A model generated the notes under the pieces. That model was given only the letters and a program-made list of their open reading frames with translations. It was not told where the DNA came from and did not search any database. Of a stretch of 64,000 nt of DNA, positions 14,901 through 61,834 are shown in pieces; position 1 is the stretch's first letter, and each line of letters begins with the position of its first letter. Source of the stretch: Lycorma delicatula (lineage: Eukaryota > Arthropoda > Insecta > Hemiptera > Fulgoridae); NCBI RefSeq assembly GCF_047948215.1, contig NC_134464.1, forward strand, positions 3,792,001 to 3,856,000. Direction: 5' to 3'. The position numbers and the translations under genes were made by a program.

Positions 14901-17900
14901 AGATAGTTTACATTAAAAAAAGTTTTTCTTTTCATGATATTGATCGACAACATGTGTACACGATCATCTCTTAAAACCATAGAAAAATTAAACTGGAAAT
15001 TTGTATGACATTTGCCGTACAGTTTAGATATTGCTTCTGTAGATTCCATTTTGTTTGTGCACTGAAGATATTATATAAAGTTAAGTTTTATGACATAAGC
15101 AGTAAAAATAAATTAACAAAAGTGGCTCAAATTTCAAGGCAGTTTTTTCTGCTTACTTTAAGACTGATAAAGAGATAAGAGAAGTCTGTATTTGTGGGGA
15201 ATTATGTTGAAAAATAGGTGATGTTTAAATTTACTGATTAAGCCGGACTAACAAGTCATCGATCATTTGTCTTTATTTATTGAATGAATCTCATATATTT
15301 GTATACTGTTGTTTACATTCGTCATCGGTTTTATTTATTTGTAAAGTACTGTTTAAATCATTTCTTCTCATAAATTACTATTATTTGTTCACAGAGTAGA
15401 AAATGGTGGTTGTTAAGATGTCTTCAAGTACATCAACAGATCTTAGATGAACCATCACAGTTGTTATATTCACAGATATTTCAATTGGCTACTGATTTAA
15501 TAGACTATGAACCGTTGACTACTAATAATGATGTATTGTGTGGTGCATTACACCTTGAATTGGCCCAAGCATACTTGCAGTACAGTCAAGTATCCAAGTC
15601 TGAACAAGAAATCAAAACCGCTCTTAAATTGTTAAAAATGGAAATTAATCTTACGGGTGAGTTTTCTTATTTTTTAATTTATTTATTTAAAATTATTAGC
15701 TATTACATTTATCCCATTACATAATGAATTTTTTTTTACTTTGGATATAATAATATCTTACTTACTTACTTACTTACTTTGGATATAATAATATCCAAAG
15801 TAAGTAAGTAAGTAGAAAGTAAGTAAATATTTTCTAAGGTTCTCAATGACAATTTAGCCTAATATATGAAATTAATAAAATGATTCATGAAACAATTTTC
15901 CTTGTCCTTATTGGAATTAAACCAGATTATGAATTTTTGAAAAAATTTGTTTTTTTAGATTTTTATCTGATGTGATGTTTTTTCATAACATATGTAATAC
16001 AGAGCTATTCCCAAAAACATAACCATTATCAAGAATTACTAGTCCCATGCCAAGCTTACTTGGGAAAGCGAGTCATCTGCCAATATAATATAATCCTGCA
16101 TTATTTTTTAATACGGTTTCTTTTTAATTTTATGAGTGTAATGTTTTCAAATGAATTAACTTTTTTAGGTGCTCTTGGTAAAAGAACAAGATATCAAGAG
16201 AAGGATTTAGCTCAACTTACAATTAATGTTAGTACTGAACGATCTAGTGGAACTTCATCGACTACAGCAGTTGATGTGTGTCGAGTAAAGGATCTTCCTA
16301 AGGTAAATTACTTTTTCCATTAATATTTTGTATGTCCATTTCCTTATGTTTTGGTAGTCAAAACTGATTTTTAAAAATATTTATTACATCCAGTTCAAAA
16401 ATGGTAGTCATTTATGTTTTAAGCCTCATATTGTTTTTCGTGTTCACAGGCATGTATGATTTTACCTAAATTGCTTGGCATTGGGTTGCCCTAGGCTTTT
16501 CAAATTAACTGCATTGTGTTCAGTACAATCTGGCTTACAGATAAAAGTCCTGTTTACGTACCTAATAGGATTTTTCTCTTGTACATTTTGTTGCCAGAGG
16601 TTGTTGAATGCAAATGGAAAAAATTCAATCTTTATAGGGGAATTTCTCAAAGAAGGTGCTTTTATATATATATATATATATATATTGTACTTTTATACCC
16701 AAGTACAGAATTACAAAGTAAATGAAATGACACTTACCTTATTTTTTTATTCCAAAAGCACTTTCGCAGGATCCCACATCATCAGTTATATACGAGGTGC
16801 AACAATAAAGTAATGAGACTGATGTGAAAAAAAAATGTTGCTTACCGTTTTAGTCATGTTTAGTGTTGTCTCCTTCAAAGTAGTTCCCCTCTGATTGCAC
16901 ACACTTATTCCAGCTCTTCTGCCATTGATGGTAACATTTCTGGAACGCATCTTCTGTAATATCCTCCAAGACCCTCGTCACAGCTTTTTGGACATCTTAT
17001 GTTGTTTGAAAATGGTGTCCCTTGACTGCCATTTTGACTCTTGGAAATAGAAAAAAGTCGCACAAAGTGATATCTGGTGAATAAGGTGGCTGTGGTAGTA
17101 CTGAAATTTGTTTTGAGCTTAAAAATTGCGGTGCTGACAGAGCAGTATGGGATGGCGCATTATCGTGATGCAGAATCCAATTATCAGCAATGTTGGCACG
17201 GACACGAAGAACTCGTTTACGAAGTCTTTCTAAAATTTCTTTGTAGAAATATCGGTTAACTGTTTGTCCAGGAGGCACCCACTCTTTATGAACAATTCCC
17301 TTGGAATCGAAGAAGCACACAAGCATGCATTTCACTTTTGACTTTGACATGCAAGCTTTTTTTGGTCTGGGTGATCCCTTTGAGCACCATTGCGAACTTT
17401 GGCGTTTTCTCTCTGGATCGTTTTGAAAAACCAACCTTCATCACCAGTGATAACGTGGCTCAACAAATCTGGATTGATTTCCGTTTGCTCTAACAGATCG
17501 GCTGTCACATTTTTACGTCTTTCTCGCTGTTGTTGTGTGAGATTTTTGGGGACCATTTTTGCACAAATCTTTCTCATACCAAGATCTTCAGTTAATATTA
17601 GACGAACCGTTTCTCGATCGATGTTGAGTTCTTCTGCAATTATTTTCACCGATAATCTTCGATCAGATCGTACGATTTCACGCACCCTGGTCAAGTTGAC
17701 ATCTGTTCGTGAGGTTGATGGTCGTCCACTGCGGTCTTCATCTTCAACATTCGTTCTGCCTTCACTAAAAATTGTATGCCACCGAAAAACTTGAGCTCTT
17801 GATATAACCTCCTCTCCAAAAGCCTTCTGTAGCTTACCATAAGTTGTCGTCGCATTTTCACCCAACAAAAAATGGCATACTGTTGCACAATATTTTGCGG

Positions 17901-20900
17901 TTTCATTTCTGTGACGAGCGACACAAACACGTGTTCACTTATTACAGCACAACTCACGACTGAGCAGTTGCATCAATGTGCTGCTTGGACTAGAAGTAGC
18001 TTATAGACCAAGGTCAATGATGGTGTGCCTACGCAAGCTGCAGGGTTGCCACATCTTGCAAAGAAAAATCAGTCTCATTACATTATTGTCGCACCTCGTA
18101 TAAGATATATTTATATAAAATTACAAATCATATATACAAAAAATATTAAGTCAATTAAATAAAATAACTATATATATATATGATGTCATAATTAAAAAAA
18201 TTAAAATTAAATTTAAAAATAAAATAAAATTAGTAGAAATTTTATACTATGTAATCTGGCCAGCCAATCCTACATTACTGAATGGATTTGAATTAAATTA
18301 TTCATATACATTATGATTATAACTATTTCTATCTAAAAATGTGCTGCCATCTGTTGCAGCTTTTATAAAAGTTTTAGATAAAAAATAGATCGTAATGTAT
18401 ATAAATAATTTAATTCAAATCCTCTCAGTAATGTAACATTGGCTGGCCAGGTTATATAGTATAAATTTTCTATTTATTTTATTTTCAGCAGTTGGTAAAG
18501 CTATCAACATAGTGCTAGTGAAATGATGAAATAGTTGCGATTTAACATTTTTTCTGAAGCCGTTTTCTGTTAAAAGTGATAGCAGGAACGAGGCTGCATG
18601 CCCACTTGCTTCTCTTGTTTAGATCCTTCAGTACACAAAATTATTCAACTTAGATGTTTATAGCAATACCGTACAGAAATAAAGTTTCAGGTCAAACAAT
18701 GAAACACAGTTTTTTTTGTATTTTTTTTTCATGCAATTGAATGGTGTAATCATTTTTTTTAATTTTTTAAAAAATGAAATAAGTTATCAGCAATAACTGA
18801 ACAATTTATTGTTGCAAGTCATTTTTTTTTTTTACATTTTTGAGCATGCTTTGGAATTGTGATTATAGATTTTTTTTTATTTTACTAAAAAGTATATGCC
18901 AAAATAATTTTTGTATATGTTCAATAATTTTTCTTTGATAAAAAAAGTGTTTTGGACATAAAAAAAATGAATATCTCAAAAACTTCTTGATTTTTTTTAT
19001 CTAAAAAAATTTGTGGTTATTTAAGACACAGAAAGGTTTACTTTCACCAAGTTACATCAAAATTAAATTATTTTTGCAGAAATGAAAAAATAAAAAATAA
19101 AAAAAAGAAGATTTTTTGCATTTTTCTCTGAAGTTTTGAGTTATGTTAAAAAGTGACCTTTACAAAAGTTGTAGATTTTTGCATGATTACAACTTTTGTA
19201 TTGGTTATTTTTTTTTACCTCAACTTTCGCTGGAAAGTTGAATAATACCATTTTTCACCCCTTTTCAACCTCCCAAATCAACCCTCCACCACCTCAGCTC
19301 ACACATTTATTTTTTATGTTTATTAAGCCCCTTTACCATTTTCACATATTAAAGTCCAGGTACCAATTTTGTTTCTTTAGGTGTAATTTGATTAGGCTAT
19401 AAAATAGTTGACCATATTATGAAGGTTTAAAATAATAATAAGCTCATACCTGATGAATAACCACATAATAAAACACTTAATGAGTAATATACGTAATAAT
19501 ACTTCTGACATATATAATTTGAGTGGTATTTATAAAATCGTATGTAATGATTGTGACCATAGTTATATTGGTAAGACCACTAGATCCTTTAAAATCAGAT
19601 TCATGGAACATTTTAGAAGTTATGAAAAAGGTAAACCGGGTTTTTCAAATGTATCAGATCATTTAATTAAAAATAAACACACAATATCAGATATTCAGAC
19701 AAATTTAAAATTATTATAAATTTAAAAAATGCAATATGGATAAGAATAATAATTTTTAACTTAAATGAAAGGTTTTAAATTTTTGTGTGGTTTTAAAGTA
19801 TATGTTAAATTTAATTAAAAAATTAATTAGTATAAAAGTTTTTTTAACATAAAGTATTAAGTGAATGGGCACTATGTTGTCATGCATTCCAAGTTTTTGA
19901 TGGTTTTGTAATGTATATAATGTATGCAGCTAATGATGCAAATCAAATTCACAAAAGTGCTTCTGTTATGTAATGAAATAAGGTAAGTCATCCTATTTCA
20001 ATTGTTCTATACTTAGGGGTTAATCTGCATATATATATACAGATTAACCCAAGTATATAAATATATCTTAATTTCGTAAAATAATATATATATATAATAT
20101 GTAGTTATTTTATTTAATTGGCTTGATATGTTTTTGCATATATAATTGTAATTTTAATATTTTTATTTTAATTTAAAAAAAAAATTGTTTAGTATGTAAT
20201 TTTTGTATAAATATATCTTATATACAACTGATGATGTGGGATCCTGCGAAAGTGCTTTTGGAATAAAAAAATAAGAATATGGGTTTTATAAATATTGACT
20301 TTAGAAAATTCAATATATGTATATACATATATTAATTTAGTAAAATAATTCTCTTTTTTTTGTCCATATCTTCCTCTGTACTAATTAATTCCAAAGGAGT
20401 AATCAATCTGCAAACAGAGTTTGATAATATACTCTTATCAAAGCTGCTACAAATAGCAGCACTTTTGTTCAATATTAGGTAAAGTTTATATTGTATTACT
20501 GAAGTACTGAATTTAGTAACTGACCACAAACATATTTAAACATATTTTATTTAAATTTTAATGCTTTTAAGGATTTTTTATTATTTGACTGCATATATAT
20601 GTCATATATGTAATAATATTAGTGTTTAGTGTTTTATTAATGTTTTAATGTGTAATTAATTTTTAATTTTAATTAACTGATGATAAGGAATTTCCTTGAA
20701 AGCGCTTTTGATATATAGAAAAGAAAGAGAAAAAAGAAAATTAATAAGATAAGGTAAGAGCTCTTATTGACTCTGTACTTTGGTGGATTGGGCTGAATCT
20801 TGTTTTTGCTTAAACAAATAGTTGTTACTTTATATATATATAATGTCAATGGTGAGTAGCTTACTATAAAAAATATACCCTTTTAAAAATTGAATTTATG

Positions 20901-23900
20901 AATTTTTTCTAGTTTTTCAGCTGCAATATCTCCGTTGGGGGAGACAGATAAAAATCTGTAAATTGCATCCATAAAAGGCTTCTATGGTATCAAAGTTCAA
21001 TATAAATTTCAACTTTGTATTAAACTTACATGACTTCCTTGTACACCTTTTAAATTTCTTATACACATTCTTTGCTGCACTTCATTTAAACTTATTTCAT
21101 TTGAAAGTGAGATACAATCCTTCAATTCTTTAATGAAGTAGACAGTTACACAATTGCTGAAATATTAGTTTTTATTAACATCAAATATCTATACGATTAT
21201 TAATTCAACAATCATACATGAAATATTAGGATAGAGTAAAAGTCCATTTATTACTAGATCTAGTCCACGTATTACTAGATCAGTATTATTTGTGTCTTCA
21301 TGAGTTGCTGATTAACAAAAGTTTTAGATTTCTGCTGTGTCGTATAAATAAAAGTTAATAATAATTAAACTATTTCGTTTAGTGAACTCCTGTATATTGG
21401 CTACAAATCTTAATTTCAACCTTACGGTGTAAAATATTCGGTTTTTATTATTGGATTATTTGGTGAATAATCAAAAATAAAAAAGAAACAATCATATAGG
21501 AAAAAGATAATAACATGAAGAAATATATTTCAAAAAACCGACAAGAAGATGAGTATGATATGAAAAGGAAGAAAGTATTAAGAACAAAGGAAAAATTAAA
21601 AAATTAAGAGAAGATGATAAATATAAAGAGGAAGATAATGTTAAAACCAAAGAAAGAATAAAAAGATTAGGAGAAGATGATAATTATAAAGAGTAAGAAA
21701 ATGTTTAAATCAAAGATAGAATAGAAAGATTTAAGAGAAGATGATTAATGTAAAGAGTGAGAAAACAAAGACAAATGAAAGAATAAAAAGATTAGGAGAG
21801 GATGATGAATATAAAGATAGAGAAAATTTAAAAGATAGAGAACATGTACACAAATTAAGATCAGAAGAATTATATAAAACCAGAGAACGATTAAATGATT
21901 GGCAACAAAAAACAAACAAAATGATGATCAACTACGACTTAGGGAGATTATTGTCCAACAATATCAGAGGAGTAATGAACTAAAAAAAAAAAGAATTTTT
22001 TGCAATTTATTAAAGATCGGGCAAATATGCCTCGGTGTATATGTTCTTGTGAGGGTGTGTTTTTCAGTCACTCTGTAGTTAACTTTAATGTTGATAAAAT
22101 TAAACAGAAATTCAGAATAATTAAATAAAATTAAACAGAAATTAAACTAGAAAATCCAAAAATAATAAGATTCTAAATTATAATTTTCAATTAATATTAA
22201 ATAATCAGATGTTTCACCAAATCTATTACATTTACACATATGTAATAATGCCTATTAAATTATATATACACATTTTTAAAAGTACATAAAATTTTATTTC
22301 ACTAATAACTTCTGATTTTTTTTCATATTTTTTTTTATTGTTCTTATTGAATTATTAATTATTGTACAATTTTTTTTACAATCATGGATTATAAATTAAT
22401 GAATCAATATATAAAAATTTAAAAAAAAGAGATGAAGTCTGATTCGAAACAATGTGCCTTCCCCTTGTAAGATCCAAATATTTCATTAATTAAAATCAAT
22501 GAAAATAAGTACCTCTTGATATATTGTTGAAAATCTCTCAACGAGGGCTTATTGCTGCAGTTAAGAAGTCCAAAATTACATTTTTTTGGATTTTGGGTTT
22601 TTTTTGGTCCAGTTGATTGCAATCAAAATGGGAGGTGCACAAGTAGATATTACAACAGTCCTAAATCTAAAATTTCAACATCCTACGGTTTATAGTTTTT
22701 GATTTATGTGAGATACATACATACAGATGTCATGTCGAATCTAGTCGAAATGGATATTTCCATTGAAATCTGAAAACCGAAATTTTTTGCAATCATAATA
22801 CTTCCTTTATTTTGTGCAAGACAATAAAAAAATTGTGAATTCGACCAGAAAGTGCTTGATTTCCACATTCGGATAAACAGGCATAATAGTATAATAATTC
22901 AGTTATTTAAACATATATCAAATTAAGATATCTATTTTGATAACAATACAGGATATGCATTAAATTGTAAATATTCATGCAGTATTATATAATGTTAAAT
23001 TTAAAGGCCATAATGAAATACAAAATCTTCAAAAATGAAACTAAAACAGCAATTAGGTAATATGTTTTAAATTGTTTCCTCGAACTACTTTAGCACTGAA
23101 TTAACAATTAATAAACTGGCAACTATATAGTGTCTTCTCACCTTTAATCAGTTTCTACTTTAATGCTGATTTAACATCTATGAGATTTCTTCACAAAGTT
23201 TGGCTGTGATGTTAAAAGTGGGCCCAAACATGGTGAATCTAGACGAGTCAGCTTGTTGATCAATATATTTTTGACTGTCAGCCAAACTTGGTTTTTCATT
23301 TCTTTGGAATGAAGTTCTTGGTCCTGGTGGATGATAAAATATAATATGCAGGCTTTGAAGTTGTGAATCTGTTTCTTCATTTCGAAGTAAATCAAGAGGA
23401 CTTTGAGTAAATTGAATTATAATACAAAATTATCATTGTTGCGACGCTTATTTTGTTGGTATGAGGATAGTATTTTTTGTGTTTAAAGACTCAGTCAAGC
23501 AGTGATCTGAGTGTATAATCTAATCGATGTTAGATGGGGAGAGTTTTTGTGCAAAACCTTTGCTGTTAGAGGAAGGTGCAGGTATCGTGTTTTTGAAAAT
23601 CGATTATGTTTGTAGTTGACGGTTGTAATTTATGGTAGGTGGTTTTGGTTGGAAGAGGCCACACAAAAGTGATAATAAGTTCTGTAAATACACTGATGGA
23701 AATGTGTGCAAGGCATTTGCATTCTGACCGATTTCAAACTGATGAATGTGATGTGTAAGCTAGATTTTGTTATGGATTGCTTCTTACTTCCCCCTATGCC
23801 AGCACAGGCATTTTTCCCATGACTATGCAGAAAAATACTTTGTGATAGGACATATTTATAAAATTATCTTTATTTTTACATTTGCTTGCAGACCCACCAG

Positions 23901-26900
23901 ATAAATAGATTAATTTTTTTTATAGAAGGATTGTATTTTTTAATGTAATTTGTTAATTGAAGTTGAAATGTATGGACTGTTTTGGTATTATGTTCTAAAT
24001 AATCACTTATGACACAAAAGCAAAGGCTCTTTACTAGTTCTTGATCTTTATAATAAAACACGAATGAACTATTGCCTGGTTGTTTACCCAGTGGTGCCCT
24101 TGTGCTTCGTCATGTTCAACAAAGGAATAGTTTTCTGAAAAGTCAACCAGAAAAAATGCATTGTTCACTATCTATCAAGATTTGATTTTTTTCTTTAAAA
24201 AATCTTCCTTGTAATTTTGCAATAAATAATGAATCTTTAGAGTTTCAAGTTTAACAATCAATATTTCAAAGAATTCTTGTATTTTACAATTGTCTTCATT
24301 TCAGTTCTGTTTTGTGTTACCCATTGTTTGTATTCTTTATTGTCTGGCATTGAGTTTTCTTCAGACATGTCAACTAAGGTCTGTTTTCTTGGACATTCTT
24401 TACATTTTCCCGTCATACAATTATAATTATCTGTTTTGCATACCAGAATTTCCAAAAGATCAGTGGTACTTATTTTCATCGGTTCCAGAGTTATAGCCAA
24501 ATAAAATTTGAATTAATGAAATATTTGTATCTTACAAGGGGAAGGCACATCAGTTCAAATGCGACTTCATTTCCTTTTCTTTTTTTAACTTTTTTAATCA
24601 TTAAATATATTGATCTGTTAGTAATTATTAACCTGTGATTGTAAAAAAGATTTTACAGTAAATAATAATTCAATAATAACAATAAAAAATTAAAAATATC
24701 AGAAGTTAAAAATGAAATAAAATTTTATGTACTTTTCATTTAAAAAAAAATGTGTGTAATTTAATATGGATACAAGGAAGTTATGTGGTGTTCACATCAG
24801 CTTTTTCGATCAGATCATCATATTTGTTTCGTAAATTTTGAGGATTGTCATCTGGATTAGAAGTAGGAATTTCCTTTTTAAATAAAACTTCAAAATATTT
24901 TCTGACTGGTAGAAAATTTTTTCAGTTTTTGTTTTGAAGGCTACAGATCTTTTTTCTTCACTTAATTTACTAATATTGCAAATAAACTATAAACCTAGAA
25001 TAGCACAAGCCGAATGTACCTTTATTATAAATTCTGATAAGTCATAAAATTCTTCATCTGAACTTTCAGTATCCCTTTCTTTGTACTCCATGAATATTTT
25101 ATAGTAACATGTTAGGCACAATGATTTTCCGGTATTTGGTTGACAGGAATGGTTATATTCCTAGATTAATGATCCAGAGTTTTTTCGGTAAGCTTTTGTT
25201 ATAGACTCTTTATGTTTTTTGAAAGGATCCGAACAAACATGGCCATAGAGAGATAAAATTTTTTCAAGTATCTTATTTCATGATATTTACCAGTTGAAGT
25301 GACCTCAGAGTTCATTCTTAAAGAAAAAAACATGTTTTTTTCTTAACTATAATCTTTAATTGATTTAATGTCTTTAGGAAAAAATTCATACACAGTTTTA
25401 TGGCAAGCTTCATTAGTAAAAACACCTATACAACACTGAAATTTTATTTTGTAAAAGGTACAAAACTGTACACTTTAAGAACACAGAGTAAAGTGAGACA
25501 AATATTGGTGAAAGGGGAAAACAACACACTGTGTGCAGGCACAGACTTGGACTACTTGCAGCAGCTTGAGTGAGTCTATACAATCCTGGAACTATCTACA
25601 AAGAATTGTGATTCAATAATTAACTATTAACAGTATAAATTGTGTGTGTGTGTTTGTGTGTATGTATATATATATATATACATACATAATTAATCTTAAT
25701 CTACATATTAGTTGTCATTCAAAATGCTTATTCATTTCTATAATTTAATTGGTTTATAAATACAGAGTGATTTATAAATCATCAGTGCAATCATCTCTCA
25801 GGAGGTGATTCTATACTCAAAAATAAGAAAAAAAGTTCATATAAACATAGGTTAGAAAATATTTGTTAGTGAGTTTCGTCTTGCGACACATTTAGCCTTG
25901 CTTTCACTATGAAATTAAACCATATTAAAATTCTTGGATTACAAATCAAGGGGTAAATTTGTTCCTTGTTATGGTTTTTGACCAAAGAAATTGAATAAAA
26001 ACGGTTCCAGACCTCTATCTCACTTAGGTTTTAAGAAAAACAAGGTAAAACATGAAAACGTTTTGTCGGAAAATACACTTTTAGGTTTGAAATAAAATTA
26101 CTTTGTTAATTTACCGATAAACAAATACAAATTTCTAGCTTTTGTAAAGTAATTAATTCTGAGAAAATTTATGTAAATAATGTCTATTAAAATTAAACAC
26201 AAATTAGAGTTTCAACTTTAATTAGAAACAAAACACAGGAACTGGATCAGAAAAGATGATTTTAAATAAAACAATTTTCATCAGTGTTGAACAACATAGT
26301 GTAAATGAAAACAAATAGAAAACTTATCGGTAACTGAAAAAATTAATAAAAAATAGATTTAAAAAAACAAAATTAAGTACTTTTTGTTTTTTTTCTATAA
26401 ATTATTAAATATCAAAATGAGTTAATTAGATCCAAAATGATAAAATGGGTTAACATCAAAATAATTAAGCTGTAAATATTTCTTCAGAGCAGTTGCTCAA
26501 TGTGGCTCTCATTCTGGTCAGCGCACAGTTCAGCACGACGAATCCATGTTAGCCGGGCACGTGTAATAGCATCGTTATCATTCGTAATAGTAGCTTCAGC
26601 TTCTATTATACAATGTCTCAGTTCTTCTTGTGTGTGACTTCATCCAACCCCAAAGGAGAAGGTCCGCGCTGGCATGAGATTTGGAAATTAAGGTGGCTAT
26701 TTTACTGGTCCGTTTTGACCAATCAGTGATGGTGCACCACCATCACTGAAAAACCACATCTGTAAGTGGAATATCTTCCAATAGTTTCATCAGATTTATT
26801 TACAAAGAATGCAAATACCGTTCTCCACAGAGCCTTGGCGATAAGAAAAAAGGCCATATGAGATTGATATTGAAAGAAGGCCATATGAGAAGAAGAAGAC

Positions 26901-29900
26901 CACACCACACATTAAACGAAAAAGTACGTTAGAAATGACATGTAGAAGTCTCATGGGGATTTTCTTCTGCCCAAGTGTGAGTGTTTCAGTAATTTACAAT
27001 GCCATTTCTTGTACGGGATTCAGCAGTAATTAAAATTTTACTTAGGAAATCAGGATGATGTTCACATTTTCTAATTAACCATCGACAGAATTTTATCCGT
27101 CTGTCAAAATCAGGTGGTAATTAATAAATCTTGTCACACTTTGTACGTAATCTTGTCACACTTTTGATGCTCCCATCATGTCTGCCAGATTCTTGATTGC
27201 GAAACATGAAAGTAACCAGAAGGTGCTTGAAGTAGGAGATACTTGTACCACATTCAATACTACTTCTTCAGCGTTAGCATTTCTCTCAAAATATTCATGA
27301 CCTGCATCAAATCATTGTGGTTTAAGGAGACCTGTTTCTTGAACTCACTTCTCCAAAGCCTGAAATGTTTTACAATCCTGTATTTTTTGATCTGGATAAT
27401 TTTCCTCATATTCATTCACAGCAGCCAATCCATTTTTATTTACTTTAACTAAATTAACAACATGTCCCTTAACTTTCCAAATGAAAATGTCAAAACTCCA
27501 AATGTCAACAGCAAAATGAAAATTTGTGGTTTTACCCATTGACTGACTGAACATAAACAGCACAAACACCGTTTAAATGAATATTCATTTGCTAGACACT
27601 AAACTTACCCACCGGGTTGGTCTAGTGGTGAACATGTCTTCCCAAATCAGCTGATTTGGAAGTCGAGAGTTCTAGCGTTCAAGTGCTAGTAAAACCAGCT
27701 ATTTTTACACGGACTTGAATACTAGATCGTGGATACCGGTGTTCTTTGGTGGTTGGGTTTTAATTAACCACACATCTCAGGTATGGTCGAACTGAGAATG
27801 TACAAAACTACACTTCATTCACACTCATACATATCATCCTCATTCATCCTCTGAAGTATTATCTAAACGGTAGTTACCAGAGGCTAAACAGGAAAAAGAA
27901 AGAAAGACACTAAACTTAATTGTTGATCAGGTGTTATTGCCAACCTATGAAAACATAAACATTTTTTATGTTTTAGAAGGATGTCTTTCAAATTTATTTA
28001 TTAAGTTAAATGCGGGTGTATGTATACATGTATACTAATTGAATTAATTTATTGTATTATCATTATTAAAAATATAGTTTATTTTTTATTTTGTTAACAG
28101 ATTGTCATCTGTAACCACCAGAATTCAGAATAAAATAAATAAATGTCTTTCACCATTTTGCTCACCTGTATGTTTAATAGACCATATATTCACTGAATGC
28201 CATTTATTCTGTTAGTTATTTAGACTTTTTATCCCTGACCGAACAGAGATGGTATTTGTGTTTGGGGTAAGAGGTTTTGTGTGTGTGTGATCATTTTCTT
28301 CAAAAACTACTGTACAGATTTCAATGCAGCTTTTTGCATTACACATGAATCACTTCAGAACAGGTTCTTAGACATGTTTTATGCAGTTATAGGCCACCAG
28401 GGGCGCTGCAGTAGATGTGTTTCTCTAAAATGTCTGCCGATGTTGATGCGGTTTTTTGCATTACATAGATATTACTTCAGAGCAGGTTCTTAGATTATTT
28501 TTATTGTTATAAGTTGCCAGGGGGCACTGCAGTAGATAGATTTCTCCAAAACAACAGTAGATAGGTTTCAAAAATTGTTAATTTTGTCAGTTGTGTTATT
28601 TACATTAGATGTACCAAGAAAATGTTCATTTTAAGATTTCAGAATTATACGTTGCAATTTAGCCAATTTAAAAAACTGCCTTTTTTAAATGCAATCTAAG
28701 CGACTTCATTTGAGCATCACTAAATTGAAGAAAGCAATCTTCCATGTGTAAAGAAATAGATTAATTGTGGTATTTTAAAAATAATTTTATCAAATTTGTT
28801 TTTGTACAGAATGTTTTACTTGAAGATGAAGTGTGTTTGGATGGTATTAATTTCACTGATCCAAATTCAACACAATTTCCTAATTTAACTGCTGTTGAAC
28901 AAGCTGCTATATTGGCGCTCTTGTAAGTAATTTTAATTTTTATATGTAAATGACATACTTTAATGCTGAATTTTTTAAAATTATTATGTATTTGTTTTTC
29001 TATGACTTTGTCACAGTTGAACATTTTACCTTTTCTGTATAAATTTGTAAAATAAGAATAAAAATTCTAAACAGAGCTCACATCTCGTAAATAAAACCTT
29101 TTGTATCTATAATATCCAAAACAATTAGGATATTTTTTTAAAAATAATTTATTTAATTTTTATTACTACTGTCCTAAATTATACATTTTTTCATGTAATT
29201 TAACAAAATAATGAAATAAAAGATGAAATTAAATAGCCTCTTTAAAAATAACTAACCCGTACTAAAAAAAATAAAAATACTTTTCAATTATTTAAATTTT
29301 TACCCTTAAAGATCAGCACCTACTTTAAAAAATAATCTGAGTTGAAGTGGTATTTTTTTTTTTACTTTTTAGTACTTTTTTGCATTAGTTTTTTTTTTTT
29401 AATATTATTTTATTTTTTATATTTTTAGAGCCTAAAAATGTAGACTTATAAAAAACTTTACATGAGAAAAAGTTTAGTTTAGAAGAAGGAGAATTTAAAG
29501 AAGCAATGTAATGAACATATTGAACATTAGCTGTGACTAAAGTGTAGCAATACGTATTCCTTATTTTTTATTTAAGTATCCAGAGTTGCCACCTAGTCAG
29601 TGATTGAAACCCACAGCTGGATAATAAAAATTTTTTTTTGTACAATGTTTATTAGTTATATAAAATATAAAAACATGAAAAAAATCAACTTCTAAAAAAA
29701 TACAAATAATAATGTAAATATTAAATAATTTTTAAGCAATGCGAGATAAAAATTTAAAAAAATTCATAAAAATCACAGAACAAAATACTAATAGGTTCAT
29801 ATTTTATTTATTGCCTTAAAAATATTTTATTTATTGCTCCACGCTGCTTCCAAAATCTTTTTATTTTTTATTATTTTATTGAAAAAAATCAGTACAATTT

Positions 29901-32900
29901 TGTAATATTTAAATTATTACAGATTAATAATTCTGCCTTTACTTTTTCTGCTGTTTATCTGTTTCTTTTATCCCACCATAATTCATACATTGAAGAGAGA
30001 ATTCTCTCAATATTTGCATTGGATGTTGGAATGCAAGTATAAATTCAATTAATTTTTTTACGTTAGGAAAGTTGCCTTTTCGTAATATATATGCCCATAC
30101 TTGTGAGTTACTTTTCTCCTTTTTAATGTTCTTTTCCAAATGTTTCACTATTTCTTTAATAGTGGAAATTTCATCAAAAATATCATCACTGTTTTCTTAT
30201 AAGTTTATTTCATTTATATATTTATCTGCTTCTTTGAAATGTTCTTTTAAACCCTACAAACACACGGTATAACTCAGTTTCATCACTGTCTTCTTTTTCA
30301 ACAATTAAGATGCGTTTTATGAAAATATGTAAGAAAGAGTGAACAAAATAAAATAAATCATGAATTTTGTTAGGGATATTGTATCATTAATGCCATTTTC
30401 ATGTTCGTGCATGAATTTCCAGATGGTGGGATTACATTCATCTTCTCCTTGATTTAAAAAATGAAGAGTTAGCATACCAATTCTTTAGTAGTTTATCAGT
30501 TGCTTGTACAGACCCAACTACCTTGTTGAAACATGTTTCAATATCTGAAAGTACGACTGGTCAAGAAAATCAAAAACAGTCTTTTAGTTTTCTGGTATGA
30601 AGTGCTGGATGAAAATTTGCTGTAAATTTTTAAGACCGACGTTTCCATATTGTATTTCATTGTTTTTTATGCTTATTTAGCAGATATGAATAATATGACA
30701 ATTACCATTAGCGTTTATTAAATTTTTGTTATTTGCTTGTAATTTTGTAAAAACCGAAGAATCGCATCCAAAGTTAACAGGTGCATTATCAGCTCCAAGT
30801 GAGGTAATGTTCTTAATATATAATTCTACATGGTTAATTGTTGATTGAATAATATTAAAAATATCTTCAGCAGTTTCGCCCCATGTCTGTTTAAAATCTA
30901 TGAGAGCATGAACAATAGGTTGCTCGTAATCATTTACATTAAAATGCTGAATTGCAATTGGAAACGAACTTTTTATTACCTTTATTCAAAGCATCAGTAG
31001 GAATACTAAACGGTAGATGTGTCAACAACTTTTTTAATTATTTCAAGTGCTTAGGGAGCCAAAACTTTTGTACCTGAGACTGTTTTCGTCTGCCCAAGTC
31101 TTATGTTTTTGCACATCATATAATCAGGAAGTGTTGTAGCATTAACTTCAGTTCCACACATCATGGATAAAAAGCTGTTATGTGACTTAACACGTGATAA
31201 ACTTGTGATAATTCTGCTGCTGCTACTTGATCTTCAAACTTGGAACATTTTGGTTTAAAAAAGTTTTCCAAATTGGAGGTACAAGCAAGTAAAGTTACAT
31301 TTTTTTTATGACTATTTGGTTCCATATGCATTTTTACATCTTTTATGCCATTCCATTTGACACTAAAGGTTATATTGCATATCAAACATCTCTGTGCTTT
31401 TTATCGTCTTCTTAACTGTTTGCAACCATTTTTTATAATCTGCATGTTGTAACCGTTCTTGATTAAATTTGCAACTTTGTCTCCTCTTTTTTGTTTCAGT
31501 TGTCATATTTCCTATTAAATTATAAAAAATTTAAATAAACATTTTATTTAAAAAAAAAAAACCATAATGCTATATTGTATTTCCCCATGTATATATGTTG
31601 TATCAGCGTTGTGGTGATTGTACTTCTGGTTGTATAAAAAACGTACAGCAAAATAGCACACTAATGAGATGATTGAACCGCAGGATTGAGAAGTTATTTT
31701 CATAAATGTTAGATTAAGAAACATTTTCATTTTCACAGTCACTCCTTACGATGATATTTGGAACTAATATCACCGTAAATAAAAGTTTCTCAGTTCTCAT
31801 AAAAGTTTTTTTTTGTAAATTTTCAATTTCGAAGAAAATCGGACAAATCATCCAATTACCAGATCATTATTCGAAAAACCAGATTATCTGGGGGAAAACT
31901 GGTCAGGTGGCAACACTGTAAGTATCTAAGTTTTCCAGATTACTTTGTGTATTTGTGTAGAAGTATTTTAAATATGAGAATGGTATCAGCCTATATATAT
32001 ATATATATTTATTTATATTTAAATTCTCTTAAAGTTAACCATCTACTACAAAATATTGAGATAAGACATATCTTACCTTAATGTCTATTTATTTATTTAT
32101 ATAATTATTTTACTGAAATTAACTTTTTAAGATTCATATTATTCCTGTGTTCTGTTAAATTATATTCTAAATTCTATTAATTTAAACACCTAGTACAGAA
32201 TATAGTACCGTCTAGATAAGACATAACTTAATTTTACCAAAGTACTTTTGCAGGATCTCACACCCTCAGTTCTGATTGAATATTTAATTAAATTGAACAT
32301 TAAAAATGTTAGAATAATGAAATTTATAAATAATAGAAATTATTAAAAATGACATAAAATTAAGTACATTAGAAGAATATTACATATATAGATACAAGCA
32401 AAATTTTAATTTGATAAACCATCAGATAGTGTTTGAGGGAGACAGTCTTATAAAAACTGCAGTAGATAGCAGTAGCAGCACTCATATCATAAATTAATAC
32501 ACAATTTTAGTATTTTTAATTTCTAATATGGAGTTTAAGTAAATATTTCAATCATGACTGGGGATGCGGGATTCAGCGAAAGTTCTTTCATGGTAAAATT
32601 AAGGTAAGATACATCTTATTTCAATTTTCTGTACTAGGTAGTTTATATTAATAGAATTTAAAATATGTACTATTTTAAAGCTAATTGTATAATATAAAAC
32701 TTATTCAGCCATTCCACAAATCACAGGATTAAAGAACATTCTTACCTTACTTTTTTCCATTAAAGCGCTTTTGGGCATAAGCCCATCTTCAGTAATGTTT
32801 TTTAAATTTTACTTTTTTACATTTACACAGTAGATAACATGATGCATTAAAATTTATAGAACAAATATTTGTTCAGTCAAAAAAAAAATTAATTTGAAAG

Positions 32901-35900
32901 GTTATAATATTAAAATTTCCTTTAATATGCTATCTATTTGTTAATACAGTGCTGTACTTAAATATCTAATTTATTTAAAATTCTGTCTGTGGATTCATTC
33001 GGTTGAATTTATGTTTATATTTATATTCATAAAATCTTTCTAAAATTTCTAATTTTTTATTATTACTTTTGTATTCAATATTTACTTTTTCAATTATTTT
33101 TAAATTATTTTCCAAACTAGTTAAATTATGTTTGTTCATTATTAAATGGTCTGGTAGATTTAAGAAACCTATTTTTTTTATTTTTAAATGACTTGGAAAA
33201 GTTCATTAAATCTATCTTTAACAGTCGTATTTGTTTTTCTAATATGTACTTTTTCACAATGATTGCATTTTATTTTATAAATACCAGAAAAAATTAAATA
33301 CCCATAATAAAATTTTATGTACATGATTTATACCGCAGACAATTTTACTTTCAAATACTTGTAGATAAATTTCTGACATTACCACATATAAGGGAAAACC
33401 CATAGGTAATGTGTTTTCTTGTGTATAACATGTACTATTAAATTCAAAATAATTTTGTTTACAAATATTTCTAATTATAGTTATAATATTATTTATAAAT
33501 TTTTGGTCTTCACCTGTATTTATTAATTTGTTTTTTATTAACAAAATTGTATAATCAATAGGAATACAGGGGTACTTGTTAGTTATATCGAAGCTATCAT
33601 TTTTGTTTTATTTATAGTTAATTTATAAATCAACTCATACCTTTTTTTTTATTATATTTATATTCTAAATTTATTTTTGATCTAATTATTTTATCAATCA
33701 TTTTAGTAATTTTATAACTAGAAGCGGTCTTGAAATTGATTAATGATCTCATAGGGATACCTTCTTTATGTAATTTAAGCAGAATTTAATGGGGAAATTC
33801 CTATAAATATTATTTAAGGTGGTAATAAATTGATAAGGAATTTTAAATAAATTAGATAATCAGTACAGTACTGTATTAGTAAAAAAAAATTTTTTTTTAA
33901 TTGATTACAAATATTTGTTCTATATACATTTTAACATATCATGTTATCTATTGTGTAAATGCCAAAAAAGTAAATTAAAAAAAACATTACTGAAGATGGG
34001 CTTAAGCCTGAAAGCGCTTTAATGAAAAAAATGAAGGTAAGAATGTTCGTTAATTCTGTAGTTGTGGACTGGCTGAATTAGTTTTGTATTATATAATTAG
34101 CTAGATTTTACATATAGAGGAGATTTGGACTACAAAAAATTTAATTTAAATAAATTAATATATATATATATATATATATATATTGTTATGCAGTTACAAT
34201 TCAATACTAAGCAGTAATTATGAGAAAAAAATTGAAAGCTGTTTTCAGTTTATTTATTCAATAAATTAATTTTTTTTTTAAATCTTCCATTTATGATATC
34301 TACTAAAATGTATAAAGTAAAAGAGAGAGAGGTATCTGTCTTGTGAAAAAAAAAAATTGAAATCAGCCCATTTGAAGAGTAGGACCTAAACATATATAAT
34401 AAACTATTAAGTCTGTTAAAGGTGCATGAACCTTGCCAGAAATCAAATCTAAATTACACTGTTATTCTACCAACTTGACTGGCCATGTTTTACTTTATCA
34501 TTTCATTTGATGGTCTTAAAAGTATAATGTAAAAGTAAAAATATACTATTAGACAGATTTTGAAAATTATGATTTGTTAAATAGACAGCAGTAGTTTGAG
34601 TTTTCAGTCTGCACTTAACAAGACTGACAGTAGTTTGAATAATATAACATGTAATTAGTTTGAATTATTTTACATGCATTTTAAAATTTTTATGTTTTAA
34701 AATAATTCTGCAAGAAAATATGCTTTCTTTTCAACGAGCAGTTCATTTCTTCCATTTTATTATGTTGGCGGTTGTGTTTTATAAAAAAATCAGTAAGTCA
34801 TAACATCAGTAGACATTTATTTTTATTATTTCTTTTAAATAACATTCTACGAGTCGGAGCGTGGAATGTTAGAAGATTAAAAAAGGTTGGAAGGGTAGAA
34901 AATTTAAAAAGGGAAATGGATAGGGTAAACGTGGATATAGTAGGAATTAGTGAGGTTCGGTGGGAAGAGGAAGGCGACTTTTGGTCAGGTGACTTTAGAG
35001 TAATTAACTCAGCGTCAAATAATGGGCAGGCAGGAGTAGGTTTCGTGATGAACAAACAGATAGGGAGGAGAGTGGAGTATTTCAAGACGCATAGCGATAG
35101 AATCATTGTAATAAGGATAAAATCAAAACCTAAACCGACAACGATTGTTAACGTCTATATGCCTATTAGCGCCCATGATGATGATGAGGTAGAATGTGTA
35201 TACGAAGAGATTGATGAAGCAATTAAACACGTAAAAGGAGATGAAAATTTAATAATAGTTGGAAGTTGGAATGCAAGCAGTGGAAAAGGAAAGGAAGGAA
35301 ATGTAGTGGGTGAATACGGGATGGGCAAAAGGAATGAAAGAGGGGACCGACTTATAGAGTTTTGCACGAAGTATAATTTAGTAATTGCCAACACCCAATT
35401 TAAAAATCATAATAGAAGAATATACACTTGGAAAAAGCCAGGCGATACTGCAAGGTATCAGATAGATTATATCATGGTTAAGCAAAGATTTAGAAATCAA
35501 CTCGTTGACTGCAAAACTTACCCTGGAGCAGACATTGATAGCGACCATAATTTGGAGATAATGAAATGTAGATTGGGGTTTAAAAACCTGAAGATAAGGT
35601 GTCAGATGAATCGGTGGAATTTAGAGAAGCTTGAGGAAGAGGAGGTAAAGAAGATTTTTGATGAGGACATCGCAAGAGGTCTGAGTAAAAATATAAGGTA
35701 GAAAATGTAGAAGAAGAATGGGAGAATGTTAAAAAGGAAATTCTTAAATCAGCAGAAGCAAACTTAGGCAGAATAAAGAGAACTGGTAGAAAACCTTGGG
35801 TTTCAGACGATATATTGCAGCTGATGGATGAACGTAGAAAATATAAGAATGCTAGTGATGAAGAAAGTAAAAGGAACTATCGGCAATTAAGAAATGCTAT

Positions 35901-38900
35901 AAACAGGAAGTGCAAACTGGCGAAAGAAGAGTGGATTAAAGAAAAGTGTTCAGAAGTGGAAAGAGAAATGAACATTGGTAAAATAGACGGAGCATACAGG
36001 AAATTTAAGGAAAATTTTGGGGTACATAAATTAAAATCAAATAATGTGTTAAACAAAGATGGTACACCGATATATAATACGAAAGGTAAAGTCGATAGAT
36101 GGGTGGAATATATTGAAGAGTTATACGGAGGAAATGAATTAGAAAATGGTGTTATAGAGGAAGAAGAGGAAGTTGAGGAGGATGAAATGGGAGAAACAAT
36201 ACTGAGATCTGAATTTAAGAGAGCATTAAAAGATTTAAATGGCAGAAAGGCTCCTGGAATAGGCGGAATACCTGTAGAATTACTGCGCAGTGCAGGTGAG
36301 GAAGCAATTGATTGATTATACTTACTGGTGTGTAATATTTATGAAAAAGGGGAATTTCCATCAGACTTCAAAAAAAGTGTTATAGTAATGATACCAAAGA
36401 AAGCAGGGGCAGATAAATGTGAAGAATACAGAACAATTAGTTTAACTAGTCATGCATCAAAAATCTTAACTAGAATTCTATACAGAAGAATTGAGAGGAG
36501 AGTGGAGGAAGTGTTAGGAGAAGACCAATTTGGTTTCAGGAAAAGTATAGGGATAAGGGAAGCAATTTTAGGCCTCAGATTAATAGTAGAAGGAAGATTA
36601 AAGAAAAACAAACCAACATACTTGGTGTTTATAGACCTAGAAAAGGCATTCGATAACGTAGACTGGAATCAAATGTTCAGCATTTTAAAAAAATTAGGGT
36701 TCAAATACAGAGATAGAAGAACAATTGCTAACATGTACAGGAACCAAACAGCAACAGTAACAATTGAAGAACATAAGAATGAAGCCGTAATAAGAAAGGG
36801 AGTCCGACAAGGATGTTCCCTATTTCCGTTACTTTTTAATCTTTACATGGAACTAGCAGTTAATGATGTTGAGGAACAATTTAGATTCGGAGTAATAGTA
36901 CAAGGTGAAAAGATAAAGATGCTACGATTTGCTGATGATATAGTAATTCTAGCCGAGAGTAAAAAGGATTTAGAAGAAACAATGAACGGCATAGATGAAG
37001 TCCTACGCAAGAACTATCACATGAAAATAAACAAGAACAAAACAAAAGTAATGAAATGTAGTAGAAATAACAAAGATGGACCACTGAATGTGAAAATAGG
37101 AGGAGAAAAGATTATGGAGGTTGAAGAATTTTGTTATTTGGGAAGTAGAATTACTAAAGATGGACGAAGCAAGAGCGATATAAAATGCCGAATAGCACAA
37201 GCTAAACGAGCCTTCAGTAAGAAATATAATTTGTTTGCATCAAAAATTAATTTAAATGTCAGGAAAAGATTTTTGTAAGTGTATGTTTGGAGTGTCGCTT
37301 TATATGGAAGTGAAACTTGGGCAATCGGAGTATCTGAGAAGAAAAGATTAGAAGCTTTTGAAATGCGGTGCTATAGGAGAATGTTAAAAATTAGATGGGT
37401 GGATAAAGTGACAAATGAAGAGGTATTGCGGCAAATAGATGAAGAAAGAAGCCTTTGGAAAAATATAGTTAAAAGAAGAGACAGACTTATAGGCCACATA
37501 CTAAGGCATCCTGGAATAGTCGCTTTAATATTGGAAGGACAGGTAGAAGGGAAAAATTGTGTAGGCAGGCGACATTTGAGCTGCATCAAACCAGTCAAAT
37601 GACTGAAGACAAAAAAAAAATTTCTTTTAATGCATTTTTTTATAACTTTTTAGCACATAAATATAGATTGACAGTAGTGGCAAGTTATATTTTATCTTTT
37701 TACCGAGATGAAATTTATTAGTTTTTAATGTACTGTGTCATTACTGCTTTAATATGTGGAATGGCCTTGTTTTATACTTTATTAAAAATAATGCTATAAT
37801 TAAACATAATGAAAGTTAAAGTGTGATATTTTTTTTGTCATTCATGTATCATCAACAATGATTTCTTAAGAAATACTATTTCATTTATCTATTTGTGATA
37901 AATCTATTGTACATATACAGTATACAAAAATGAATATTACTGTCTTGAATCCCAGGTACTTGGCCTACTCTTTTCTAAAGGTAAAGGATTTTGTTTAAAT
38001 GTTTTAACACATTTTCTATGACAATTTTTCCAATTATTAAACTCGCCAACCTAAATACTTGGTTAATAAATCTAATAAATGAGGGGTTGTAATAAATGGA
38101 AGTAATGTTTAAAAAGTTTTTTAATGATTAGAACCCCTCAAAAAAGCTTCATATGGACTCATATAATCCACTTCTTGCGAGAAAGAATGACAAAAATGCA
38201 AGAAAATATCAAATTTCATGATTATTTATTGTTAAGCTAAATTACAACATGAAAGCAAAAAAATTATTAAAATTAAATTTGTACGTTAGCAGAAAGCTAT
38301 ATGTAGAAGAAAGTGAAGATGGTGTTTAAAATATTTTACTTGCCAGGCTATGGTAATATTCATTTTTAGCTAAAAATGTCAAACGCATTAAGGAATTACT
38401 GGACTGAATTTTATTGTCTGTTTTGCACCATGTACATCTTATAATAATAAATAAAAAATTTTTTTAAGGAACTTCATTTTAATGTTTAATTTACAGCAGT
38501 ATACTTTTAACAAAAGCAATAATGTCTAAATGTTGCAGTTGTGGAGATTTAATAATCACAAAGTAAAGTTTAGAAAGTAATCAAAATGACTAATTTGAGA
38601 TTCAGTAGTCTGTTTTAAACATTGTTATGAAAATTGCTTCAAATTTAAACCAGTCTGTGAACTTCACTTATAATTAGTCAGAATTAAGGTTCACAGTTAT
38701 AATTAGTCAGAATTAAGGCCTTCAGAATTAGAATTTTAAAATCAATGTTTTTTTCTGCATCTATTTAAAAAAAAACAAAAAACAAAAATTGATTGAAAAA
38801 TGTTTGAAAGAGTCAATATATGGAAAAATGAACAGACTAAATTTTTATATGTATTTTATGAAGATTTGACTGTTCATTTCTTAAATGTTTTTCCTCAGAA

Positions 38901-53900: not shown

Positions 53901-56900
53901 GTATATCTTTTGTTCACATTTACCGCCTAGATGGAAAGTGGAAGCTGATTTTGCTTCTATTCTCATTACACTCGGTGCAGTACAGTCAGCATTAGATGTA
54001 TATTTAAGGTTACAGATGTGGGATGAAGTAATTGCGTGTTATAATTTTCTCAAATTAAGACATAAGGTATTTGCTCTAATTATTTAAATTTATTTTGTAT
54101 AACTTTATACATTTATTAAAATCAAATAGCTTTCTTTGATGTTATGTTTTAACAAGATTCTTTTTTTATGAAGAATATTTGCGTAAATTATTTTAATTTT
54201 TTTTATCACAAAGTGTTCGATTGCATTTTACTAAAGATCAGATAGAGTACTAGGAGAAAGGAAGAATTGTGCTGGGGTAGAATTTAAGAGGTTGACTACA
54301 TATATATTTATATACACACACACACACACATTGAACACAGAAAGTAATAATAATGTATTAGAAATTTTAGAAAGGTTTTATATATATATAAATGTAAATT
54401 TAACCTAATGAATCTGCAGACAGAATTTTATAGGGACATTCTTATTAATATTATTTAAGTTGGTAATACATTGATAAGAAATTTTAAATAAATCAGATAA
54501 TTAGTACAGTACTGTATTGATATTGACAGCATGTTAAAGATGTTAAATAGTATAATGTTTAAAATTTTTTATTGACTGATCAAATATTTGTTCAAAAATG
54601 TTTAACGTATGTATTTTAATATGTAAATGTAAAAAAGAAAAAAATTAAAAAATTACTGAAGATGGGCTTAGGTCCAAGATCACTTTGAAAATGAAAAAAA
54701 AAAGTTAGGTAAAAGTGTTCTTTAATTCTGTTCTTTGTGGAGTGGCTGAATAAGTTTATATTACATAATTAGCTAGAATTTATGTGCAGAGAAAATATGG
54801 ACTAAAAAAAATTAATTTAAATAAATTAATATATATTTTGTTAAAATCAAATAATTTGTTAACATATTGACCACTGTGCTAAATCTAATGTTAAATAAAA
54901 TATAAACCACCAAAATACAGTAAAGAAATATTTCAATTACAAGAATCAATTTTTGCATGTTCCTGCATCTTCAGTTGTAATTAAATTTTATAATTATATT
55001 AAAAAATATTTATTTATGATTTGTTAATTTGTCAAAATTGTTTTTTGAAAATTTTGAAATTTATTATGGATGAATACGCAAATTCTGCTGTCCAGTACTG
55101 GAATTTGCATAATCATATTTAGTACATTTAATTTTGCATAATCCCCTTAAGTCCTCTCTATTATTTTTATTATCGTTATTTCTTAAATATTTTATAATAT
55201 AGTTATTTGGTTTATATACTTTTTTTTATATTTATTTTTATATCATGTACTTCAGTAATTTTTTCTTTTATTTTATTTGTACAATATTATTCTGGAAAAA
55301 ACTATTACTAATCTCTGTGTTATTTTCTTGTTGTTTTTTGAAAAACTATCATTATACTTTACATTCTGTTTTTTATAAAAAATTTTTATAATTTTATCAT
55401 CAAAATCATTAAATACTATTATTTGTTTTATTTCTTTCTTTCTTGAGTCTATTTTTATTGTATTTTTTTATATAATGAATAGCTCTAAAAATCAGTTTTT
55501 ATTTGTATTAATTTTTTATGACCATCGGTGATTAGAATTTACTTGTATTGTGTTACTATTTTTTGTGGGTTTTCTATAAGCTGATATTTCTAAAATATCA
55601 AAAAATATATTTTTCTGTTATGAGGGACGATCAGAAAGTAAGTTACAAACCCTCCCTGAAACAAACACATAAGACAATTTTTCTGTTGGAGTAGTAGGAG
55701 TGTGGTAGGGACTAAGGGTGAGTGAGCCAGTCGCGGTCCAGATGCCGACTCGGACAGTCCAGTGCTGTTACTTATTCTAAACGTAAACTTAAACGACATG
55801 CTGTTTCTTATATGAGTCGCGGACTGGCTGCCGTGGACTGTAAATGTATAAACTAACCTAATTTGTATGTTAGTACTGTGTACTATATTAATCTTAAACA
55901 GATGTGTGTAAACGCAGTATTAAACTTATACTTATGTTATACTTTATACTTTACGTTAAACCTTTATACTTTACGTTAAACCTTTATACTTTACGTTAAA
56001 CCTTTATACTTTATACTATGTCAACCTCAAATAAAACTGTGGAACTTAAACGAGTGAATCTTATTTCACCTGCATTTTTAAACTATAAACATTTTCTTTT
56101 ACTGAACAATAAACTACATATCTTAATCTACTTTTTGACATAATCGGTAAGTTTTTCTAAACGCTTTTCATAGCTTCCGACAGGTTTCCATTCTCATAAA
56201 AATTTCATCCAGTTTCCTTCAACCATTTGACTGCTTCCTTCAGTTCATCATCAGTAATGAAATGCTTCCCTCCCAATTGTCGCTTGAGAGGACCAAACAG
56301 GTGGTAGTCGCAGGGTGCAGGTCAGGACTGTAAGGTAGATGAGACCACACTCTCTCTGCAATCTCTCTAATTTTAATGCGCCAGTTACTCAAGATCATTT
56401 TATTCACGTGTTCTGTGTTATTTGTGTTTGTAATTGAAGAACACCCAGCATGCAGTTCGTCACTCACATTTGTTCTTCCGTTTCTAAACATTTGGTATCA
56501 TTTTGTGATTATGGGGTGTAACATTGCATTCTCACCATATACCTCAACAATTTAGCGATGAATTTCACAATTGTAATTTTTTGCCTACAAAAATCGGACT
56601 ACTGAATGCACTTCTATGCTGGATGAAACCTCTAGAGGACATGCCATATTGACAATGACATTACACATGTACTGAATGTTGTATAGAATTGCTGCTGGGG
56701 GAGCATGAAGACAACTACACAAAGACATTAATATATCTCTTTCAGTTCAAGAAAACGGCAAGGGTGTAATTTATTTTTTGGTCTACCTCTTGTAATTAAC
56801 TTTAATAGAATTTACCTTATTTATGACTGTTAGGATTTTTTACACTACGTTTATATTTAAGATTCATTTTTATTCTAAGAATAGTAGCTATGAAATACGC

Positions 56901-61487: not shown

Positions 61488-61598
61488 GTAAACTAAGTGT
61501 GTCTTACCATGGTTGCATTATTTTTTTGTATTATAAACTAGTATTTAAGTTTTTCCATTTAAAATAAATGGAAAATAAATAAATAAATAAAATAAGTT

Positions 61599-61834
61599 GG
61601 AAATAAATTGGAAAACAAGTCTAAATACAAAAGCTGCTTACAAATATGTTACTTAAAATCTAAAATTAGATGACCATTTTGATTGTTAAACAATCATCAT
61701 CAGTAGATACAATTCTTTTGTCAGTGTCTTTTGATGATGGTTATTTAACAATAGAAATGGCCATCTAATTTTAGATTTTATATAACATTTTTGAGAACTG
61801 ATTGTAAATGTAACCTTGTTTTCCAATTTATTTC
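61599..61834. mobile_element. Foldback element with about 105-bp arms
   Basis: Arms at about 61599-61704 and 61732-61834 are imperfect complements. Shared blocks are GAAATAAATTGGAAAACAAG, AAATCTAAAATTAGATG and CCATTT, ending ATCATC/GATGAT. The spacer is about 27 bp. It is non-coding, lies 112 bp after exon 10, and is unrelated in sequence to the foldback at 18220-18486. Confidence 0.72.

Follow-up and report, generated by a model that had tools for sequence, protein, structure and literature searches.

A 64,000-nt window of the Lycorma delicatula genome (NC_134464.1, positions 3,792,001 to 3,856,000 of the forward strand, assembly GCF_047948215.1; "the window" below) contains ten copies, in five families (A to E), of a short motif with a conserved hammerhead core, stems I and II that covary, a helix III that is self-complementary in most copies, and a position downstream of GIY-YIG endonuclease or reverse transcriptase (RT) remnants. 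We consider it likely that these sites are minimal type I hammerhead ribozymes with predicted activity, residing in the pseudo-long terminal repeats (pLTRs) of several endonuclease-containing Penelope-like families and mostly decayed in the window. They are a well-supported new example of a kind already described in Penelope-like elements; we infer ribozyme activity, a dimeric form, and a purpose in freeing element RNA.

An earlier note on this DNA had listed six of the copies (A1, A2, B, C1, C2, and A3; coordinates in Table 1), and all six are present no more than 2 bases from where it placed them; every one has CUGANGA, a single extra U, and a stem II that pairs. When the six sites are aligned, they have in common ACUGANGA, the extra U, stem II, a GAAA-like stretch, and a short helix III, and the aligned rows confirm the CAUUA/UAAUG stem I that had been read in C2. 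The GAAA and the cleavage base, attributed to all six, are each found in five: C1 reads GCCC-AAAA, so that G12 is A, and A3 (which the note began at 61101) has G at position 17 (AGUGUU-G). Two of the six sites thus lack an essential base. Four degenerate copies (C3, D1, D2, and E) had been overlooked. The core CUGANGA...GAA together with a cleavable base 17 is complete in A1, A2, B, and C2, and the other 6 of the 10 copies are changed at one or more places. A strict descriptor, requiring the core, GAAA, a cleavable base, and minimum lengths of 4 bp for stem II and 3 bp for stem I, matched exactly those four sites in the window; 60 simulated windows with matched dinucleotide composition gave 2 matches. 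A1 and A2 are not independent, because they share 98% identity along 55 bp. With G-U counted, 5 pairs form in stem I of C2, C1, B, and A3, and only 3 consecutive ones in A2 and A1.

Stems I and II are backed by compensating changes, both in the window and in genomic loci. Across the ten window copies, 89.3% of the 121 cells of stems I and II and helix III are paired, compared to 71.7 ± 2.7% with shuffled partners and 37 to 45% when the arms are slid, and 10 of the 13 pairs change on both sides; some of this agreement is built in, because the copies were picked for the motif and then aligned. The sequence of stem I varies from copy to copy (CAUUA/UAAUG, CAUGA/UCAUG, UACAA/UUGUA, and AUUAA/UUGAU). 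We also built covariance models from which one family was left out. The model lacking family A (R2) recovered all three A copies, with expectation (E) values of 5e-07 for A2, 7.8e-07 for A1, and 2e-05 for A3, and the model lacking family C (R1) recovered two of the three C copies, C1 at 6.8e-06 and C2 at 3e-05; these E values are rough, coming from short calibrations, and the common core supplies part of the signal. Model matches with E above 0.06, such as those at 61658-61708 and 19925-19967, are counted as unproven. The latter (+ strand, CUAAUGAUG...CAAAAGUGCUU; model E values of 0.099, 1.1, and 0.27) is a possible extra decayed hammerhead between the GIY-YIG remnant and A2, and a palindrome at 20005-20060 lies directly after it.

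The genome assembly (2.2 Gb) was searched by exact matching with the pattern ACUGANGAU-N8-14-GAAAGYGCUUU, with the reversed pattern as a control. The core pattern gave 358 matches and the reversed pattern gave 0. Among the first 30 loci listed, all on one contig, 81.9% of 270 cells in stems I and II are paired, compared to 61.3 ± 2.1% with shuffled partners and 27 to 53% when slid, and the covariation score is 0.561 versus 0.222. For stem II in the first 50 listed places, 84% of cells are paired, versus 62.6% with the arms redealt and 21 to 52% when slid. Further pair types number 23, compared to 19.7 after shuffling (30 of 500 shuffles as high), and two of the five covariation measures are not clearly above the shuffles. 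The covariation across genomic copies that the earlier note had proposed as a check is seen in overall pairing and covariation, whereas both-sided pair changes are not unusual. A pattern scan found at least 116 matching stretches in prokaryote genomes, and 2 more came from viral contigs. We read these matches, at least 118 in all, as chance: among 118 listed, 5 have at least 3 stem II pairs, and just one of these has 3 pairs in stem I as well. One of the two viral-contig matches scored 19.1 bits and had 4 of its 9 pairs broken; the other scored 14 bits and covered part of the model.

The canonical hammerhead has no additional base between A9 and stem II. The motifs here depart from that form by one inserted U. 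The extra U, which the earlier note had pointed out, is present in all six of its sites and general in the genome, where 358 of the 391 pattern matches have a single U separating A9 from stem II. The remaining 33 have a non-U base (reversed pattern, 0), and a rough sorting by length places 23 of them as resembling 3-nt deletions and 10 as full length; the U and non-U patterns differ slightly in gap range. The frame that begins at A9 has an AUG start in 27 of the 30 loci and ends after 8 to 14 codons in 28, so that the open reading frame (ORF) of the element is not opened there, and we rejected A9-U-G as its start for the copies seen. Stop codons are common in AT-rich DNA such as this. Downstream, a donor-like GGTAAG lies within 90 nt in 19 of the 30 loci, 15 to 37 nt past the cut, versus 9 of 900 control windows taken elsewhere in these loci, a contrast that is overstated because copies of the same family are not independent. 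In the alignment of window copies, AAGGTAAG or GGTAAG follows soon after the hammerhead in 6 of 10. This downstream GGTAAG is possibly a less documented feature. The similarity between A2 and A1 ends exactly at the GGTAAG-like place in A2.

A comparable arrangement is described in passages of PMC11167929 for the Anolis Poseidon element PAc, whose hammerhead resembles ours in stems I and II and whose start codon lies where stem II begins, after G8, with the predicted cut about 24 to 26 nt further on. This location fits an AUG formed by A9-U-G, which by analogy suggests that Penelope elements may commonly carry the extra U. The PAc start codon opens the element ORF, whereas here the frame closes almost at once. 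It is possible, though we would not expect it, that the motifs form a distinct structural variant, in which the conserved U would make A9-U-G a short frame overlapping the ribozyme, GGTAAG would lie some 20 nt past the cut, and cleavage, upstream translation, and splicing would compete over about 60 nt and so decide between messenger and transposition template. We think it unlikely that the motif persists chiefly as a signal for translation or splicing (A9-U-G10.1 as AUG, GGTAAG as donor), with ribozyme activity secondary or lost. The frequency of GGTAAG and of AUG at A9 and the Anolis ORF beginning at stem II (PMC11167929, in the part cited) would agree with such a role, but signals of this kind do not require compensating changes in the stems or retention of CUGANGA and GAAA, and the early closure of the A9 frame also speaks against it.

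For the hammerhead reading, a dimeric mode of cleavage would need a palindromic helix III. With G-U counted, helix III is self-complementary in 8 of the 10 window copies (AGCGCU, AGUGCU, AGUGUU, AGUACU, or AAUUGAUU), compared to 16% of the A....U hexamers in the window, and the two exceptions, AGUUCU and AUCACU, are both in decayed copies. Predicted self-pairing energies are -8.3 kcal/mol for AGCGCU, -3.8 for AGUGCU, -4.8 for AGUACU, and -1.2 for AAUUGAUU. By eye, AGUGCU of A2 and AGCGCU of B also pair with each other. The best predicted homodimers of B and C1 form via a longer stretch around helix III, and B, C1, C2, and E retain stems I and II in their best monomer folds. Intact elements would produce RNA in which two copies pair through helix III and cut after base 17, a step that would free element RNA from tandem or read-through transcripts and would probably be assisted by the element's own protein. 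Since a transcript across an inverted pair contains one motif in sense and one in antisense, such pairs could not form this dimer in cis; same-strand neighbors such as A2 and B, or separate RNAs, could do so.

The location of the motifs links them to Penelope-like elements. In the window, an inverted pLTR pair surrounds the RT-like remnant, no direct pLTR pairs around a coding part were seen, and the coding remnants seen are broken. When the 30 loci were searched with the GIY-YIG and RT pieces from the window (E of 0.01, 1.5 kb on each side), 10 loci had a GIY-YIG remnant upstream of the hammerhead in the sense orientation, and 3 had one in antisense. Remnants of either kind occur in 13 of 30 loci, and none was found within 1.5 kb downstream of the hammerhead (0/30). 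Two GIY-YIG pieces from genome relatives exceed the Pfam cut-off. As to the telomerase-like type of RT that marks Penelope-like elements, an RT piece of a genome relative matches RVT_1 with an E value of 0.0096, which falls short of the cut-off, and the best solved-structure match is an RT (E of 0.025). Against a large protein collection, the RT-like piece of the window gave 3 candidates, none at an E of 0.001, and the GIY-YIG piece gave no candidate. The claim that hammerhead-type motifs sit at the ends of Penelope-like elements is supported by covariation, cross-family models, the genome count, and the remnants near 13 loci. Five picked regions of the genome with neighboring matches had outward pairs in four cases (L149, L150, L151, and L153) and an inward pair in L152. 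Related transposase-like frames lie between hammerhead copies in two different contig regions (L149:2445-3317 and L152:1795-2501, - strand). Inverted pLTRs are known from Penelope elements of Adineta vaga, as passages of PMC3846280 describe, and resemble the family C and D insertions here; the terms hammerhead and ribozyme have 0 occurrences in the main text of that paper, whereas the insertions here carry hammerheads.

Several results weigh against this reading. No Rfam hammerhead family matched the whole window at an E of 1 or the segments 32100-34150 and 20180-20780 at an E of 10, the scans returning just unrelated weak matches, so that the covariance-model check suggested by the earlier note fails for the Rfam models and succeeds for those built here; R1 in turn did not find C3 at an E of 2. 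Among the 30 loci, pairs changing on both sides number 8, compared to 6.9 after shuffling (111 of 500 shuffles as high), and by strict count only 16 have at least 3 consecutive outer stem II pairs and only 14 have at least 4 stem I pairs, counts that are as expected if many copies have decayed. Neither a GIY-YIG nor an RT remnant was found in 17 of the 30. The RT piece of the window has no match in Pfam or solved structures, and the GIY-YIG-like peptide of the family C insertion gave just a weak zf-BED match. Folding energies do not favor the expected helix III dimer: self-pairing of AGUGUU is predicted not to be favorable, the best predicted homodimers of A1, A2, and C2 join via the stem II region and not helix III, and A1, A2, and D2 fold best as monomers into shapes other than a hammerhead. 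According to passages of PMC11167929, Anolis elements with a mutated hammerhead remain able to insert in vitro, and RNA ends at the cut were not observed.

The loci without coding remnants might instead suggest that the motifs belong to short nonautonomous retrozymes mobilized by Penelope-like elements, and excerpts of PMC7229834 propose that such elements move metazoan retrozymes. In the same excerpts, animal retrozymes are short repeats in tandem that carry canonical type I hammerheads. By contrast, the motifs here lack helix III, comparing the window with itself revealed no such tandem array at the sites, and 13 of the 30 loci do have GIY-YIG or RT remnants; we regard this alternative as very improbable. 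Chance resemblance in AT-rich repeats, to which the absence of Rfam matches and the weak stems of some copies might point, is rejected as scarcely credible given the simulated windows, the reversed-pattern control, and the covariation in the window and the 30 loci.

Among known systems, the closest to these Penelope-like hammerheads is the minimal type I class (Cervera and De la Pena 2014 and Lunse, Weinberg, and Breaker 2017, both cited in PMC7761336 and PMC6466107; also PMC6155905), which in the passages drawn on here is alike in core, reduced palindromic helix III, pLTR location, and many dispersed copies. Thousands of such hammerheads are reported there from many metazoan genomes, some in Penelope-like pLTRs, with dimer cleavage considered possible (PMC7761336); they are described as lacking helix III and as possibly dimeric (PMC7761336, PMC6466107), with palindrome and tandem requirements for which Lunse et al. 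are cited (PMC6466107). The novelty that the earlier note had suspected is therefore mostly anticipated, since the class, the missing helix III, and the dimer mode are in print in these passages; the extra U is real in this genome and may set the matches here apart from the class as known from citing passages. Type I hammerheads of newt and axolotl are alike in their weak helix III and double-hammerhead cleavage mode, but, in the parts of PMC6155905 and PMC7229834 cited, they have tandem satellite-like repeats and loop-loop contacts, neither of which was seen here.

Table 1. Hammerhead copies, insertions, and coding remnants in the window
Feature	Positions	Strand	Description
Copy A1	16751..16790	-	Complete core, cleavable base, helix III AGUGCU, stem I 3 bp; mariner-like insertion abuts 5' side
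Copy A2	20223..20262	+	Complete core, cleavable base, helix III AGUGCU, stem I 3 bp
Copy A3	61099..61138	+	G at position 17, helix III AGUGUU; predicted inactive
Copy B	20672..20712	+	Complete core, cleavable base, helix III AGCGCU, stem I 5 bp, stem II 5 bp
Copy C1	32758..32797	-	A replaces G12, rest complete; predicted inactive
Copy C2	33985..34024	+	Complete core, cleavable base, helix III AGCGCU, stem I CAUUA/UAAUG
Copy C3	54651..54690	+	Decayed: A12, helix III without self-complementarity; missed by model R1 (without family C)
Copy D1	32235..32274	-	Core CUGAGGG, A12, helix III AGUACU
Copy D2	32553..32592	+	CUGGGGA in place of CUGANGA, stem I CAUGA/UCAUG, helix III AGUUCU
Copy E	54938..54979	-	A12, stem I UACAA/UUGUA, 8-nt helix III AAUUGAUU
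Family C insertion	32679..34102	-	Inverted repeats (217 columns, 86%), each with an outward-pointing hammerhead (C1, C2)
Family D insertion	32162..32666		Inverted repeats (173 columns, 73%), outward-pointing D1 and D2
GIY-YIG endonuclease remnant	19423..19719	+	Upstream of copy A2; Pfam 20.7 bits, cut-off 22.6
RT-like remnant	33275..33607	-	Inside family C insertion; no Pfam match; genome relatives match RVT_1 weakly

A mariner-like element at 16789-18102 (- strand), with 35-bp terminal inverted repeats (94%) and an HTH_48 match, is inserted against the 5' side of A1, and a second mariner-like transposase remnant lies at 48721-49678 (- strand; HTH_48 at 24.3 bits, cut-off 24.1). Stop-broken frames resembling a non-LTR retrotransposon occupy 34706-37602 (+ strand), of which frame 36316-37278 matches RVT_1 with an E value of 7.5e-41. 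The palindromes at 20005-20060, 18221-18485, and 61600-61834 are 86%, 80%, and 76% self-complementary, respectively, and a 311-bp repeat forms an inverted pair at 593-903 and 27600-27906 (92% identical). Three plus-strand frames (15374-15724, 53746-54087, and 61224-61496) resemble exons of one host gene, which we take to be TTC27, although they have no Pfam match; on that assumption the elements would lie in TTC27 introns. Penelope-like elements can themselves hold and retain introns, according to passages of PMC3846280.

A reading of raw sequence thus found a real ribozyme class that the Rfam hammerhead models do not report here. The role of hammerheads in Penelope-like elements is called still a mystery in the passages of PMC7761336, and the several hundred covarying copies in this genome provide material for asking what the extra U and the donor-like site do in these elements.

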